Shown: piece by piece, positions 2,660 through 16,205 of the stretch
Layout of the letters: each line of letters starts with the position of its first letter
Numbering within the stretch: position 1 is the first letter of the stretch
Virus record (IMG/VR): IMGVR_UViG_3300050821_009242
Location: 1 to 39,971 of that record
Origin: a virus
Strand: one strand, 5' to 3'
Length of the DNA stretch: 39,971 bases
Made by a program: the position numbers and the translations under genes
Notes under the pieces: model-generated
The model's database searches: none
Seen by the model: only the letters and a program-made list of their open reading frames with translations
What the model was told of the DNA's origin: nothing

Positions 2660-3508
2660 TTATCTGTCGCTCATCACAGCGACCTTCACGAAGCGCCGGT
2701 TGCGGTCATAGATGCGCCGGGTAATCGCGCTGTTTTGGTGACCGGCAAGCAGCGACGCTGCCATCATGTCCGGATTGTCAGACACCGCTTTGGCGCGAAG
2801 ATCATGAAAGTGAAACCGCTCATGCCCAGCGGCTTCCCAGGCTCGACATCGGCGCTGCCATTCGGCACGAAACCCGTCCTCGGTGTAGCGCAGGCCGTGC
2901 TTCGTCCGCAGCACGTACTCGCGCGGCCAATGAGGTTCCATGAGCCATGCGCGGTCCAGAATCTTTTCAACTTGTTCCGAAAGCTCTACCGCCAGCTTCT
3001 TGCGGCCGCTAGACTTCCCCTGGTCGATCTCGATGTGCCACTGATCGCGCGGCAGGTTTTCGGTCTTTATCTGAGACCACTTAAGTCCAAGGAGATCGCC
3101 CTGGCGCTGGCTGGTTACGCGCGCGAGATCCATTGCGATCTGAAACTGCGGCCGACACGTCGCTCGGAATGCCAAAAACTCTTTTGTGCTCACGTATCGC
3201 TCACGCGGACTCGTCGGCCAGCGCTCGATCACCGTGCAAGGATTCGTGAGATTCAAGTCCAAGCACCAGCGGCCCATGGCCTTCTTGAAGACCGTCGACA
3301 GGATGGTGACCATGCGATTGCGATGAACACGCCCGGTTGGCACGTTGATGAACTCGGCAACGTCCTTGGGGCGCATGTCGACGACATCCTTGTGGCCAAA
3401 CGCGCGGCGCAGGATGATGATGATCGACCTATAGTCGCGCTGCGAACGCCACTGCAGACGCGGAATGCACTCGGCCTCGTAGAGGTCGAATAGATCGTTC
3501 ATGGTCAC
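2660..3508 (-). CDS. int: Tyrosine recombinase (phage integrase)
   Basis: The protein has 282 residues. The N-terminal ~100 residues look like a core-binding domain. The catalytic domain shows R135 in TSQRQGDLLGLKW, a basic strand (SSGRKKLAVEL), H235-x-x-R238 in HFHDLRAKA, H257 in LAGHQNSAIT and the nucleophile Y267 in RRIYDR, so the R-K-H-R-H-Y set appears complete. The GTG start overlaps the ATPase stop as GTGA. The short length suggests a reduced arm-binding domain. The gene is buried in an operon, with only 11 bp on its 3' side, so attP is not in an obvious intergenic space beside it. Confidence 0.93.
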   Translation of the reverse strand: MTMNDLFDLYEAECIPRLQWRSQRDYRSIIIILRRAFGHKDVVDMRPKDVAEFINVPTGRVHRNRMVTILSTVFKKAMGRWCLDLNLTNPCTVIERWPTSPRERYVSTKEFLAFRATCRPQFQIAMDLARVTSQRQGDLLGLKWSQIKTENLPRDQWHIEIDQGKSSGRKKLAVELSEQVEKILDRAWLMEPHWPREYVLRTKHGLRYTEDGFRAEWQRRCRAWEAAGHERFHFHDLRAKAVSDNPDMMAASLLAGHQNSAITRRIYDRNRRFVKVAVMSDR

Positions 3509-4440: not shown

Positions 4441-5267
4441 GCGAACTCCTCGGCCTGGGTCAAGTCCCAGGGCGCAGGCTCGGCCCAGTGGATGCGCGTG
4501 TTGTACGCGGGCCAGGAATCGGTTTTTAGGCACTTGCTCCACAGCTCCTGCGCCTTTGACACCTTGGTTTGACCCACGAAGCGGTAGGAATTGGACAAGG
4601 ACACCAGAGAGCAGGCGTAGGGCGGGGTGATCTCTTGGGCTAAAAAGACGAAGGCCGGAAGCGCGCCGGTAAGCACCTCGATGCCTCGGGAGTAAAACTC
4701 AGCTTGGCAATCGTACCCCATGCGGCCGATCTGGCGCGAGAAGACGCCTGGAGCGGCACTGGCGGTTGATTTGTAGTCCAGCAGGATTTTACGATCCTTT
4801 GACATGATGTCGGGTCGTGCCCGGCACCACACCTCGCCATCCTGCCAAACCAGCGTGTGCTCTGGATCGCCGTCGTCCAAAATACCGGCAAGCTCCGTGG
4901 TGGCGATGAACTTTCGAGCCGCATCGCACATCTCCTTGATGTCGGCGTATTGGCGCTCCAAGACCGCGTACTTGCCGGCGGCTTGCGCGGCATCCCGCGC
5001 CTCTTTCGCCGCCTTAGTGCGCCAGTCTTCGGCCTCGACACGCACGATACGCTCCTCGGATTTTTCGAGCAGCATCATGTGCGCGGCCGATCCTAAGTCA
5101 AAGCGGCTATCCTGCTCTGGCTTATAGTTCGGGTTCAACCGCGGGTGTGCAAGCCAGGCGTGCAGCGGGGACTGCTCTAGGAGGATGTTCGCGATCGATG
5201 AGGACAGTGAGGCGCTCGGGGCCGGGTCCGCATGATACTCCTCAGCGGATAAGGCCTCGATGCTCAT
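4437..5267 (-). CDS. RecE/RecB-like PDDEXK exonuclease
   Basis: The protein has 276 residues. Motifs of the RecB/RecE exonuclease fold are in order: GSAAH (59-63), ARPDIM with D153, LLDYK with D164 and K166, and QAEFY (Q188 to Y192, the QxxxY motif). The Ala/Lys/Glu-rich 85-120 segment is helical. The family (DUF3799/PDDEXK_1-like) degrades double-stranded ends 5' to 3' to expose single strands for annealing. It is coupled by overlaps to the ATPase downstream (GTGA) and a small gene upstream (ATGA), giving a two-component recombination cassette beside the integrase. Confidence 0.9.
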   Translation of the reverse strand: MSIEALSAEEYHADPAPSASLSSSIANILLEQSPLHAWLAHPRLNPNYKPEQDSRFDLGSAAHMMLLEKSEERIVRVEAEDWRTKAAKEARDAAQAAGKYAVLERQYADIKEMCDAARKFIATTELAGILDDGDPEHTLVWQDGEVWCRARPDIMSKDRKILLDYKSTASAAPGVFSRQIGRMGYDCQAEFYSRGIEVLTGALPAFVFLAQEITPPYACSLVSLSNSYRFVGQTKVSKAQELWSKCLKTDSWPAYNTRIHWAEPAPWDLTQAEEFA

Positions 5268-5777: not shown

Positions 5778-5995
5778 TTCCTACCCCCCCCCAGGTTCAA
5801 CTGTTCGGGCGCCACCGTGTCGAGCACATCGAAGGCCTTCGCCTGCACGGCCTGGAACACGTCTTCCGTAGAGGAAGCGGTCGCGTCGAATATTTCGTTC
5901 GCATGCGCGCGGATGGCGCCGGCCAGCGTATTGGCGCGAACGTAGCGCTGGATCTCGCCGGTTTTCTTGTTGGTGACGGTGTAGATGCGGGACAC
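5774..5995 (-). CDS. First gene of the leftward operon, 73 residues, unknown
   Basis: The GTG start at 5995 has an AGGAG site and lies about 30 bp from the -10 box of the leftward promoter, so this is the promoter-proximal gene. The sequence MSRIYTVTNKKTGEIQRYVR resembles a short beta-hairpin, then a helix (ANTLAGAIRAHANEIF). Its 3' end includes a run of nine C on the plus strand (5784-5792), encoding GGG. That tract could be prone to slippage, which would change only the last few residues or the overlap with the next gene. Confidence 0.8.
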   Translation of the reverse strand: MSRIYTVTNKKTGEIQRYVRANTLAGAIRAHANEIFDATASSTEDVFQAVQAKAFDVLDTVAPEQLNLGGGRK

Positions 5996-6008
5996 GGTTG
6001 AACTCCTG

Positions 6009-6037
6009 TTGCGTTTTTCGACCTTGAAGCGTATGTT
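6009..6037 (+). promoter_or_regulatory. Weak candidate rightward promoter for the HTH gene
   Basis: TTGCGT (6009-6014), 17 bp, then TATGTT (6032-6037). Match to consensus is only moderate, but spacing is ideal and it faces the HTH gene, overlapping the leftward promoter. A start near 6044 would leave almost no leader before the ATG at 6055. Confidence 0.35.
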
Positions 6038-6046
6038 AAGCGCATG
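6027..6046 (+). promoter_or_regulatory. Candidate operator: two direct repeats AAGCGYATG
   Basis: AAGCGTATG (6027-6035) and AAGCGCATG (6038-6046) repeat with an 11-bp period, placing them on one face of the helix. They sit across the -10 region of the leftward promoter and between the two divergent genes, where a phage repressor would bind. A related AAGCGTAT occurs at 6792-6799 over another putative promoter. Confidence 0.45.
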
Positions 6047-13420: not shown

Positions 13421-13903
13421 ATGGCAGCGATACTAGAACTTAAATGCGCGGCTCACGGTGAGTTTGAATCGACCGAATTAGCCTGCCCGCACGGCTGCCC
13501 GAAACGATTTGTGGTGCAGGAGTTTCGCACCCCCAATGCGATTCACGACGGCAAGACCGCCTTCACCGACCGCACGTTGCGCGGCCTAGCGGATTCCGTG
13601 GGCCTGACCGATATGCGCAACGACAAGGACGGCTCCTCGGTGATGGCGAATCAGCGTTCCACCACGCCGAAGGGAATGGACTTTCGTCCAAAGTGGGTGG
13701 ATATCCCGCACGCCTCGCCAGGCTGGTCGCAACGTGAGGAGCGCTCCCCGGTAGTGACGCCTCAAGAGATCGGCGGCATGACGGGCGCGAATGTGATCGA
13801 TGAGTTCAAACGCCAAGGCATAAACTTACCCGGCCCCACGCTCGAGGCCTCGGCGAAAGCTGGGCTGCTGGTCGGTCGCGCCTCGCGTGAGTCCTTAGAG
13901 TGA
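13421..13903 (+). CDS. Zinc-ribbon hypothetical protein between TerL and portal
   Basis: The protein has 160 residues. The N-terminus has a compact C/H cluster (CAAHGEF and CPHGCPKRF, within residues ~9-30), a likely zinc ribbon. The rest is polar and probably extended, with RPKWVDIPHASPGWSQREE and a helical end. Its place between terminase and portal suggests a head or packaging accessory, but I cannot name it. The stop is coupled to the portal start as GTGA. Confidence 0.78.
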   Translation: MAAILELKCAAHGEFESTELACPHGCPKRFVVQEFRTPNAIHDGKTAFTDRTLRGLADSVGLTDMRNDKDGSSVMANQRSTTPKGMDFRPKWVDIPHASPGWSQREERSPVVTPQEIGGMTGANVIDEFKRQGINLPGPTLEASAKAGLLVGRASRESLE

Positions 13904-15555
13904 TCATCCCAAACTCTCCGCCCGAGGCCTATCAGTTCTACATGGACACCATGCGCAAGTGCATGCAGTCCAGAGCCGAGAGGCGCGCGCGCTATAACAC
14001 GCTGCGCATGTACTACGCCTATGGCGCGGACCCAGGAACCACGCAAGGGCCGGTGTACAACAAGATTTTCTCAAGCGTCGATCAAATAGCCTCCTTCATG
14101 TATTCCCAAGAGACCACGCGCTTCACCATCGAGTTAGGCGAATCGGTGTCGACCGATACTAAAGTCGGCGAGACGCGCAAGATTCCGGCGATTAAGCAAT
14201 CGCTGGCGAAGGAGTGGAACGCATCCAACACCGACATCGTGTTTGGGAGTTGCGTGCTGTGGTCCTTCGCGTTGGGCTCGATGTTCATCAAGACCATCCC
14301 AGGCACGCAAGGCGCGATCCTCCCCGGAGTCGTCGACCCGGAGGACCTCGCGGTGTTGCGCGAGGATGTCATGGGCCTGCACAACCAGGAAGCGTTCGTG
14401 CACTCCTACTACATCAGCCACAGCCAGCTCGCCAATGAGTTGACCTTAGGGGAGCATAAGCGCAAGGACGAAATACTATCGCTCGTGAAAGGGAGCCCAC
14501 GCGCGCAGCAGAACGGCGAGGGCAGCGTGTTCGATAAGATCGTGGTCTCCGCGGTTACTCCTAATATTGTGGGATCACTTCGCGGCGGCATGTGGGCCAA
14601 CATGACGCAGTACGCGCGCGCCAAGGTCGCAGAGCCTTTGGTGGAAATGTCGGAGCTTTATATCTTCGATGATTCGCTCGATGACTATCGCATCGTTACC
14701 TTGGCGCAGCCGAATGAGTTGATCTGGGATCGGCCGCTATCGCGCATGTTTTTGAAGAACGAGTTGCCGTTCGTGCAGATTTGCCCCTCGCCCAATCCGC
14801 ATTACTTCTTCGGAGACTCGGAGGTCGAGCGCTTGATACCGCTGCAGGAGAAGTTGAATCGTAGACTTGAGGAAATCGAGCACCTACTCGAATTGCAGGC
14901 CAAGCCGCCAAAGAGCGCGAGCGGCTATAACTCACCGATCGATGAAATCGCGCTCGCGATGGATACGCCCAATGGCTTGGTCAACACCGACATGCCGGGC
15001 GCGAAGATGGACGTGCACAGCCCGCAAATACCGGATGATCTGTACCGCGAGGTGCACGAGATAATTGCGATGTTCGAGGATGTCATCGGCTTAACAAGCG
15101 TGAATCAGGGCCGCGGCGAAGCCGGGGTGCGCTCCCAAGGCCACGCCGCGCAGCTATCGCGATTAGGTTCCGCCCGCATCAAGAAGCGCGCGCTCGTGAT
15201 CGAGGATTCCTTGGAAAAACTCGCGACGCTCTACGTGCAGATCAAGCGCCGCTACGATAAGCGCCGCATGCGCGCTACAGAAGGCGAGGAATTTATCGCA
15301 GCGCAGTTCACGGATGACTTCATTGCGAAGGTCGACGCGCACTCAAACTCCCCCATTTTCATGGAGGATCAGACGGCGCTAGCGTTCAAGTTATTCGAGG
15401 TCAAAGCCATCGACCGGGACGAGCTCTTGGATTTGGTCGAAGTGCCGATGCGCGAGTTGCTAAAGGAGCGCTTAAAGAGCAAAATCGAACCCGCCGAAGC
15501 GGCCAACGCGGCAGAGGAACGAAAGCTTCGCATGCTACACGGTGGAAAGAAGTGA
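13900..15555 (+). CDS. Portal protein
   Basis: The 551-residue protein follows TerL and precedes scaffold and capsid, the standard portal position. Features include an N-terminal helix, YNKIFSSVDQIASFMYSQE, a central wing with PNPHYFFGDSEVERLIPLQE, LNRRLEEIEHLLELQAKPP and a stem region IIAMFEDVIGLTSVNQGRGE leading to long C-terminal helices. It should form the dodecameric ring through which DNA is packaged and the short tail attaches. GTG 13900 overlaps the upstream stop as GTGA. Confidence 0.88.
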   Translation: MIIPNSPPEAYQFYMDTMRKCMQSRAERRARYNTLRMYYAYGADPGTTQGPVYNKIFSSVDQIASFMYSQETTRFTIELGESVSTDTKVGETRKIPAIKQSLAKEWNASNTDIVFGSCVLWSFALGSMFIKTIPGTQGAILPGVVDPEDLAVLREDVMGLHNQEAFVHSYYISHSQLANELTLGEHKRKDEILSLVKGSPRAQQNGEGSVFDKIVVSAVTPNIVGSLRGGMWANMTQYARAKVAEPLVEMSELYIFDDSLDDYRIVTLAQPNELIWDRPLSRMFLKNELPFVQICPSPNPHYFFGDSEVERLIPLQEKLNRRLEEIEHLLELQAKPPKSASGYNSPIDEIALAMDTPNGLVNTDMPGAKMDVHSPQIPDDLYREVHEIIAMFEDVIGLTSVNQGRGEAGVRSQGHAAQLSRLGSARIKKRALVIEDSLEKLATLYVQIKRRYDKRRMRATEGEEFIAAQFTDDFIAKVDAHSNSPIFMEDQTALAFKLFEVKAIDRDELLDLVEVPMRELLKERLKSKIEPAEAANAAEERKLRMLHGGKK

Positions 15556-15593
15556 CACATCGAAAAGGACATCGGCGCCGGATGCGTCGGTAA
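15552..15593 (+). CDS. Tiny basic peptide MTHRKGHRRRMRR (candidate)
   Basis: A 13-codon reading starts at GTG 15552 and overlaps the portal stop as GTGA, with GGTGG in the portal end as a possible ribosome site. Eight of 13 residues are Arg or Lys, plus two His. It parallels a second tiny basic peptide 94 bp downstream. It may be a protamine-like or regulatory peptide, or a chance reading in a Arg-codon-rich region; the coupling is the main support. Confidence 0.4.
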   Translation: MTHRKGHRRRMRR

Positions 15594-15595
15594 GG

Positions 15596-15639
15596 TTAGC
15601 GCTCCCTCAAGGAGCCTATCGCTAGGACGTAAGAGCGTC
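15596..15639 (+). promoter_or_regulatory. Hairpin-rich leader between portal and the 12-residue peptide
   Basis: TTAGCG (15596-15601) can pair with CGCTAG (15620-15625) around an inner CTCC-CTCAA-GGAG stem-loop (15602-15614). Next comes GACG (15626-15629) pairing with CGTC (15636-15639). The stems end ahead of the AAGGAG site of the next small reading frame. This could be a cis-regulatory RNA or an mRNA-processing structure. Confidence 0.45.
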
Positions 15640-15686
15640 TCGAGCGAGGTGATAAGGCCACGGTCTTTAACTTGAAGGAGATTCCC

Positions 15687-15725
15687 ATGGCCAAGCGTGG
15701 TCGGCGCGGCAAACACAAGCGCTAG
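15687..15725 (+). CDS. Tiny basic peptide MAKRGRRGKHKR
   Basis: A 12-codon gene with an excellent AAGGAG site six bases before its ATG, ending TAG six bases before an intrinsic terminator. Eight of 12 residues are Lys/Arg/His and three are Gly. The strong translation signal in otherwise noncoding DNA argues that it is translated. It may be a leader peptide coupling ribosome position to the terminator, or a DNA- or RNA-binding mini-protein packaged with the head. Confidence 0.65.
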   Translation: MAKRGRRGKHKR

Positions 15726-15731
15726 AAATGA

Positions 15732-15760
15732 CAGCCCCCACTTGCGGGGCTGTTTTCTTT
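15732..15760 (+). terminator. Intrinsic terminator after portal / tiny peptide
   Basis: Perfect 7-bp GC stem CAGCCCC (15732-15738) and GGGGCTG (15746-15752), a 7-nt loop, then TTTTCTTT. It would separate TerL/portal transcription from scaffold and capsid, unless read-through or attenuation occurs. Confidence 0.85.
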
Positions 15761-15779: not shown

Positions 15780-16205
15780 ATGGCAATCACCCCTCCGCCG
15801 CCAGGCGCGCCCCCCGTCCCCGGATCAGCTCCGGCCGGTGCGCCGCCGATGCCTGGAGCACCGGGGCCCGTCGAGAACGCGCCGCGCGGCGCGCCGATGA
15901 TGACCCCGCAAGTACCGGCCGGCGAGATGGAGGAAGCCAAGGTGCAAGTCACCATGGCCCTGAAAGTTCTCACCAAGGCACTCGCGGTTTTCGGCCCCTC
16001 GAACCCTAAAGGTCACGCGCTACTCTCGGCGATCAAGACGCTCGCCAAGACCTTCGGCAAGGACGAGGAATCCACGGAAGAGTTGCAACCGGCCGCGATA
16101 AAGCAGATGCTCGCAGGCCTAGGGGGACCTGGCACACCGCCGGGACCGCCAGGAGCGCCGCCGGGCGCGCCACCCGGACCACAAGCGCCGCCGATGGCGG
16201 CCTGA
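15780..16205 (+). CDS. Pro/Gly-rich low-complexity protein
   Basis: The protein has 141 residues. The ATG at 15780 is chosen because the longer TTG start at 15759 lies in the terminator T-run. The N- and C-terminal parts are Pro/Gly/Ala-rich, with collagen-like PPG repeats at the end (GAPPGAPPGP). The central ~65 residues form an ordinary helical domain (KVQVTMALKVLTKALAVFG). Between portal and scaffold it may be a minor head protein or assembly factor; I recognise no family. Confidence 0.75.
   Translation: MAITPPPPGAPPVPGSAPAGAPPMPGAPGPVENAPRGAPMMTPQVPAGEMEEAKVQVTMALKVLTKALAVFGPSNPKGHALLSAIKTLAKTFGKDEESTEELQPAAIKQMLAGLGGPGTPPGPPGAPPGAPPGPQAPPMAA

Follow-up and report, generated by a model that had tools for sequence, protein, structure and literature searches.

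What are two minute, strongly basic reading frames doing between the portal and scaffold genes of a tailed phage? The preliminary description of this locus saw in them either leader peptides that attenuate the late head genes or protamine-like mini-proteins that enter the head with the DNA. We followed both frames through related phages. As far as comparison of sequences can tell, both are genuine microgenes. We give roughly an even chance to the explanation that their peptides act in head assembly, where they would neutralise DNA during packaging and end up in the virion.

Two microgenes behind a portal gene

The window (the whole stretch of DNA analysed, 39,971 nt) is a record classed as a linear virus, and carries genes for an integrase, a terminase (Terminase_6C), a portal, a Pro/Gly-rich protein, a putative scaffold and a major capsid protein. 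The integrase is of the tyrosine type (2660–3508, minus strand; phrog_1, E 1.2e-39), so the phage is probably temperate and a prophage-bearing host may exist. A DNA-level similarity search of a phage collection with the window gave no match.

Both basic frames lie where the preliminary description had placed them, with their start and stop coordinates confirmed in the sequence (Table 1). The GTG of microgene 1 shares bases with the portal TGA (15553–15555). The frame has no Shine–Dalgarno (SD) site of its own, either in the window or in a relative with 83% portal identity (L001), and contains several CGG codons, which are non-optimal for Arg; it is probably translated by termination–reinitiation after the portal. 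A −1 frameshift from the portal into microgene 1 at GGA AAG AAG TGA was considered and rejected: L001 has GGT ahead of AAG and thus lacks the A_AAG slip site. Microgene 2 has an SD that ends 6 nt upstream of the ATG. No other ATG or GTG frame of 8–20 codons anywhere in the 40 kb combines at least 45% Lys plus Arg with an SD match.

Table 1. Features in and around the microgene interval (window positions)
Feature	Position	Strand	Evidence and remarks
Portal protein gene (SU10_portal)	13900..15555	+	PF23899, E 2.5e-7; constant upstream neighbour; relatives found by tblastn
Microgene 1	15552..15593	+	GTG start, 13 aa, MTHRKGHRRRMRR, read from sequence; MTHRKGHRRKMRR in L001; MRRHKRKTRR in L002 and L003; MYKKxKRGRKTRR type in the wider group
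Spacer RNA	15594..15686	+	Possible hairpins 15601–15615 and 15619–15647; fold z −1.20
SD AAGGAG of microgene 2	15675..15680	+	Read from sequence; SD at every pattern-found homologue
Microgene 2	15687..15725	+	ATG start, 12 aa, MAKRGRRGKHKR, read from sequence; L001 has MARRGRRGKHKRK and the wider group the MARKxRKGRKxRK type; under purifying selection
Intrinsic terminator	15731..15759	+	Perfect 8-bp stem (ACAGCCCC 15731–15738, GGGGCTGT 15746–15753), 7-nt loop, T-rich tail
Pro/Gly-rich protein gene, next downstream	15780..16205	+	ORF opens upstream at TTG 15759; matches no family

The preliminary description also reported a hairpin-rich segment between the frames and a perfect 7-bp terminator after microgene 2. 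The terminator is real, but its stem has 8 bp; in L001 one of its A–T pairs has become G–C, a compensatory pair change. Hairpins can indeed form in the spacer, and the one at 15601–15615 is identical in L001. Nevertheless, the RNA between the frames in the window does not fold beyond chance when compared with shuffled sequences (z −0.86 and −1.20), and no RNA structure could be demonstrated for its own clade; the RNA structure that is real in most relatives is a pseudoknot, described below. Rfam covariance models found no match in the window and, in five relatives, only a tRNA at E ≤ 1.

Occurrence in related phages

A profile search of IMG/VR with the portal yielded at least 565 relatives, 80 of which were kept, and nine more came from binned genome contigs. 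All relatives are metagenomic, and host assignment from the bins is weak. Only two phage relatives were found in GenBank, likewise metagenomic, from Manatee Spring and with 45–47% portal identity (L005 and L006). Both peptides are kept in L001, in both GenBank phages, and in L002 and L003 (51% portal identity), which encode the same microgene 1 peptide with synonymous differences only. In the GenBank records the microgenes are overlain by hypothetical proteins on the antisense strand (UOF82412.1 at 5779–6039, minus strand, in L005; UOF81572.1 and UOF81573.1 at 4740–4877 and 4874–5038, minus strand, in L006), which are probably annotation artefacts.

At least one ATG micro-ORF with an SD lies within 620 nt 3′ of the portal gene in 86 of 91 loci. 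This set holds 156 such frames; dinucleotide shuffles yield 0.7 on average, and the reverse strand none. The preliminary description counted relatives without any basic micro-frame as evidence against its reading, and the relatives do not bear this out. Counting as a microgene an ATG frame of 8–20 codons with at least 45% Lys/Arg and an SD site just 3′ of the portal, we find that 196 of 200 distinct portal loci in an enlarged set have one or more (157 have two, 31 one and 8 three). Grouped at 60% portal identity, the loci form 12 clusters; the microgenes are canonical in nine and displaced in two. Among the four loci without canonical microgenes are L213 and L215, in which the gene lies further away. 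After the portal stop of L091 (7378) a different 20-residue basic peptide with an SD, MYGKMPKPMKKPPMRDGKRS, replaces the microgenes, and after that of L095 (7656) no basic micro-frame was found; the function can therefore be lost or replaced. The portal–scaffold interval of phiEco32, a representative of the phages that gave related portals their name, has no basic peptide and encodes an ordinary 78-residue protein (gp9) instead. Most main-group loci, for example L006 (4573–4737, plus strand), carry a conserved gene for about 54 residues (MAQNVQPKADQPRVTT...) between the portal and microgene 1; it is missing from the window's clade.

We also scanned all IMG/VR contigs for the peptide pattern alone, leaving both SD and portal out of the pattern. 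The microgene 1 pattern occurs in 99 stretches in total, all 99 with an SD and 98 with a portal gene at most 1 kb upstream; the remaining one lies 185 nt from its contig start. With the microgene 2 pattern, all 80 loci examined among the matches listed have an SD, and 72 of these 80 have a portal upstream. Of the eight without a portal among the matches listed, seven have at most 470 nt of contig before them; L166, with 1576 nt, is an unexplained exception. With nothing but the window to go by, a pair of short frames in a structured, untranslated stretch might have been coincidence. The preliminary description had already thought this unlikely, and the frame, peptide and SD conserved across relatives make chance untenable; we put its probability close to nil.

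Selection, composition and codon use

Differences between relatives follow the reading frame. Across 94 disjoint sequence pairs, pN is 0.041 and pS 0.255 in frame (pN/pS 0.16), whereas the same DNA gives a pN/pS of 2.96 when read in frame 1 and of 3.23 in frame 2; preselection of basic frames lowers pN somewhat and does not explain this contrast between frames. The differences fall at codon positions 1, 2 and 3 in 62, 34 and 213 cases, respectively (213 of 309 at the third). This pattern indicates purifying selection that acts on the peptide and is specific to the reading frame.

The conserved property is charge rather than sequence: Lys and Arg swap freely, and 297 of 369 frames encode a peptide with a net charge of +8 and 49 one with +7. 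Arg (35.5%) and Lys (30.3%) are followed by Ala, Gly, Ser, Thr, Tyr, Met and His, with a little Cys, and acidic and bulky hydrophobic residues are practically absent. Two forms recur, one for each microgene (Table 1). The preliminary description had assigned the two peptides to unrelated frames; they belong instead to one recurrent type, with basic pairs at about every third residue and small residues in between. Some peptides have a penultimate Cys (..GRKSCK, ..GRKSCR and ..RKVCK, in L030, L034, L040, L051, L058 and others), which recalls the cysteine in protamines. A membrane-active cationic peptide was rejected as a candidate, as the 122 distinct frames contain no Leu, Phe or Trp and almost no Ile or Val.

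CGT and CGC account for 91% of Arg codons in the microgenes, compared with 60% in the portal and 77% in the major capsid genes of the same loci. This preference suggests that the group produces the peptides in abundance. In the window, microgene 1 is the exception, and its lack of an SD and its non-optimal Arg codons do not suggest abundance.

Displaced copies

The microgenes are not always found directly behind the portal. In L213 (31% portal identity), MARRHRRGRRARR is encoded about 1.4 kb 3′ of the portal; an inverted gene precedes it, and immediately after it comes a Pro-rich gene, the same neighbour that follows the microgenes in the window. In L215 (34% portal identity), MARRHRRGRRGRR is encoded 2 kb 3′ of the portal behind another ORF, and a terminator-like hairpin follows. 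The portal–scaffold gap of L210–L212 is 38 nt and empty (seen in L288, from the same contig as L211), and these loci have similar frames (MARRRRRHRRGRR, MARRRRRGRRGRR or a longer form, MARRGRRRGRH) in tandem behind a 585-residue tail-region gene. Between its displaced microgenes, L210 (4987–5163 and 5465–5500) also has a basic frame of 26–28 residues (MARKRSKALKMTRRAKRIRARKHKRH), which shows that basic paralogues can be longer.

All displaced copies stay among structural genes. The frames are too short to prove common descent, but location is clearly not the conserved trait. A product that keeps its character at such different positions would be diffusible and act in trans, which argues against a leader acting in cis.

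A conserved pseudoknot in the wider group

In most relatives the sequence before microgene 2 takes the form GGG-UGU-GGCUGCCU-U-CCC...AGGUGGCC, an H-type pseudoknot. Its partners pair in 94.2% of cells, against 84.6% when shuffled (36 sequences); both sides have changed in 40 cells, against 10.5, and covariation is.290, against.100. The signal is destroyed when the partners are slid. A mechanical search finds the pseudoknot in 106 of 129 intervals, compared with 16–24 in shuffles. It lies 18–24 nt (rarely 26 nt) upstream of the microgene 2 ATG, even where microgene 1 is missing, and is also present in L093 and L094, which have about 40% portal identity. A covariance model of the pseudoknot (R1) has at most one match per locus, at the expected place, and none in the window, L001, L002 or L003; the pseudoknot therefore belongs to the wider group and not to the window.

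This element probably controls translation. A pseudoknot that stimulates frameshifting was rejected, because microgene 1 has already stopped and there is no slippery site upstream. In stem 2 (A2 columns 13–14 with 36–37), a tandem U-G/G-U wobble occurs in 29 of 36 sequences and mismatches in seven, so this part may serve as a recognition site and not simply as a paired stem.

What the peptides may do

In the explanation that we favour, the two microgenes at the 3′ end of the terminase–portal transcript encode peptides of 10–15 residues and a charge of about +7 to +8 that would be made late and in quantity. They would bind DNA (or some other polyanion) regardless of its sequence, neutralise or condense the genome as it enters the procapsid, and probably be packaged along with it. 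In most relatives, although not in the window's clade, the pseudoknot before the ribosome site of the second gene would tune translation, possibly through peptides binding to their own mRNA. The protamine-like mini-proteins of the preliminary description thus fit the charge, composition, SD, codon bias and place among the head genes, and their entry into the head stands as a proposal.

Basic composition by itself cannot tell DNA from RNA or acidic protein partners, and two alternatives start from this point. The peptides could bind RNA or ribosomes, as late RNA or translation factors in the style of arginine-rich motifs, with the pseudoknot, rRNA or a host RNA as target and no part in the virion. 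Short Arg/Lys-rich peptides are classical RNA binders, and the transcript also contains a conserved pseudoknot; however, charge is kept rather than sequence, the window's clade as well as L213 and L215 have the peptides without the pseudoknot, and the microgenes remain among structural genes. We regard this role as a real possibility, albeit an unlikely one. Alternatively, the peptides could bind an acidic surface of the scaffold, portal or capsid, nucleate or order the procapsid, and then leave or stay. The constant place between the portal and scaffold genes would suit such an assembly factor, as would the electrostatic scaffold–capsid contacts of other phages, but the low sequence specificity, the one to three redundant copies and the displacement away from the scaffold in L210–L212 lead us to think it quite improbable.

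Leader-peptide attenuation, the other proposal of the preliminary description, supposes that the pace of ribosomes across the basic frames governs the terminator, and through it the downstream head genes. A terminator does follow microgene 2 in the window and its close relatives, and terminator-like sites lie 3′ of the last microgene at 31 of 194 loci by a strict rule, compared with 3.7 in shuffled sequence. The same count rules out a universal terminator after the last microgene, as the strict form is missing at most loci. Moreover, the peptide is kept even as synonymous codons change, an alternative antiterminator fold is not evident, and the displaced genes of L210–L212, L213 and L215, 1.4–2 kb from the portal or behind a tail gene, point to a product that acts in trans. 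Attenuation is not supported by these observations, and we consider it very unlikely.

Comparison with known systems

Packaging peptides of the kind that we favour would have parallels elsewhere. Sperm protamines and histone tails share the composition, the charge pattern and the replaceable Lys and Arg; the phage peptides are much shorter and phage-encoded, and their protamine-like function is a proposal. The adenovirus core peptide Mu (protein X) has 19 residues and 100–300 copies per virion (PMC7998265). It too is very short and Arg-rich, and it is late and DNA-condensing (PMC7998265), properties that are only proposed for the phage peptides. Unlike Mu, which a protease cuts from a 79-residue precursor, the phage peptides have their own genes of 10–15 codons in tailed phages. 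Membership of the Mu family was rejected, given that the frames code for no more than 10–15 residues and come with separate starts, SD sites and stops. The J protein of phiX174 (VP8 of gokushoviruses) is also small and basic; this virion peptide is required to package the DNA and has its own gene in the capsid module (PMC11945456). J is longer, however, and is present as 60 ordered copies in an ssDNA T=1 phage, whereas here one to three paralogues occur in dsDNA tailed phages. Membership of the J family was likewise rejected: the microgenes adjoin the terminase and portal genes of tailed phages, not the capsid module of an ssDNA microvirus.

The pseudoknot invites comparison with the T4 gene 32 operator, which a review calls possibly the only viral case of translational autoregulation by a pseudoknot (PMC3014915). 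Both are H-type pseudoknots upstream of a ribosome site, in T4 that of a gene for a nucleic-acid-binding protein (PMC3014915). The element described here lies 18–24 nt before the start rather than 67 nt, differs in sequence, belongs to unrelated phages and is absent from the window's clade. We consider it a candidate for a second viral autoregulatory pseudoknot, with autoregulation as its presumed mode. In a wider and more tentative picture, which we think rather unlikely to hold in full, these tailed dsDNA phages would have a chromatin-like system built on virion peptides that condense DNA and are the shortest of their kind known to be encoded independently (10–15 codons, one to three paralogues); their supply would be balanced against DNA through autoregulation at a pseudoknot operator.

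Implications

Our literature searches, which did not extend to catalogues of small phage genes, returned no earlier description of the microgenes and no experiment or isolate. One such catalogue, by Fremin et al. in 2022, is said to contain conserved short phage genes missed by annotation. Ordinary gene finders have a length cut-off of about 30 codons. The microgenes lie far below it, yet nearly every member of a large group of uncultured phages has them, and they would rank among the shortest conserved protein genes known. Neither of the two GenBank records that exist for the group annotates them, and both place antisense ORFs over the same DNA. The microgenes argue for a systematic hunt for genes of 10–15 codons in phage head modules. 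The loci also offer a conserved RNA pseudoknot with a testable ligand. Tailed phages are generally thought to compress their DNA with metal ions and polyamines; if the microgene peptides are packaged, tailed phages would be able to use protamine-like peptides for DNA compression.
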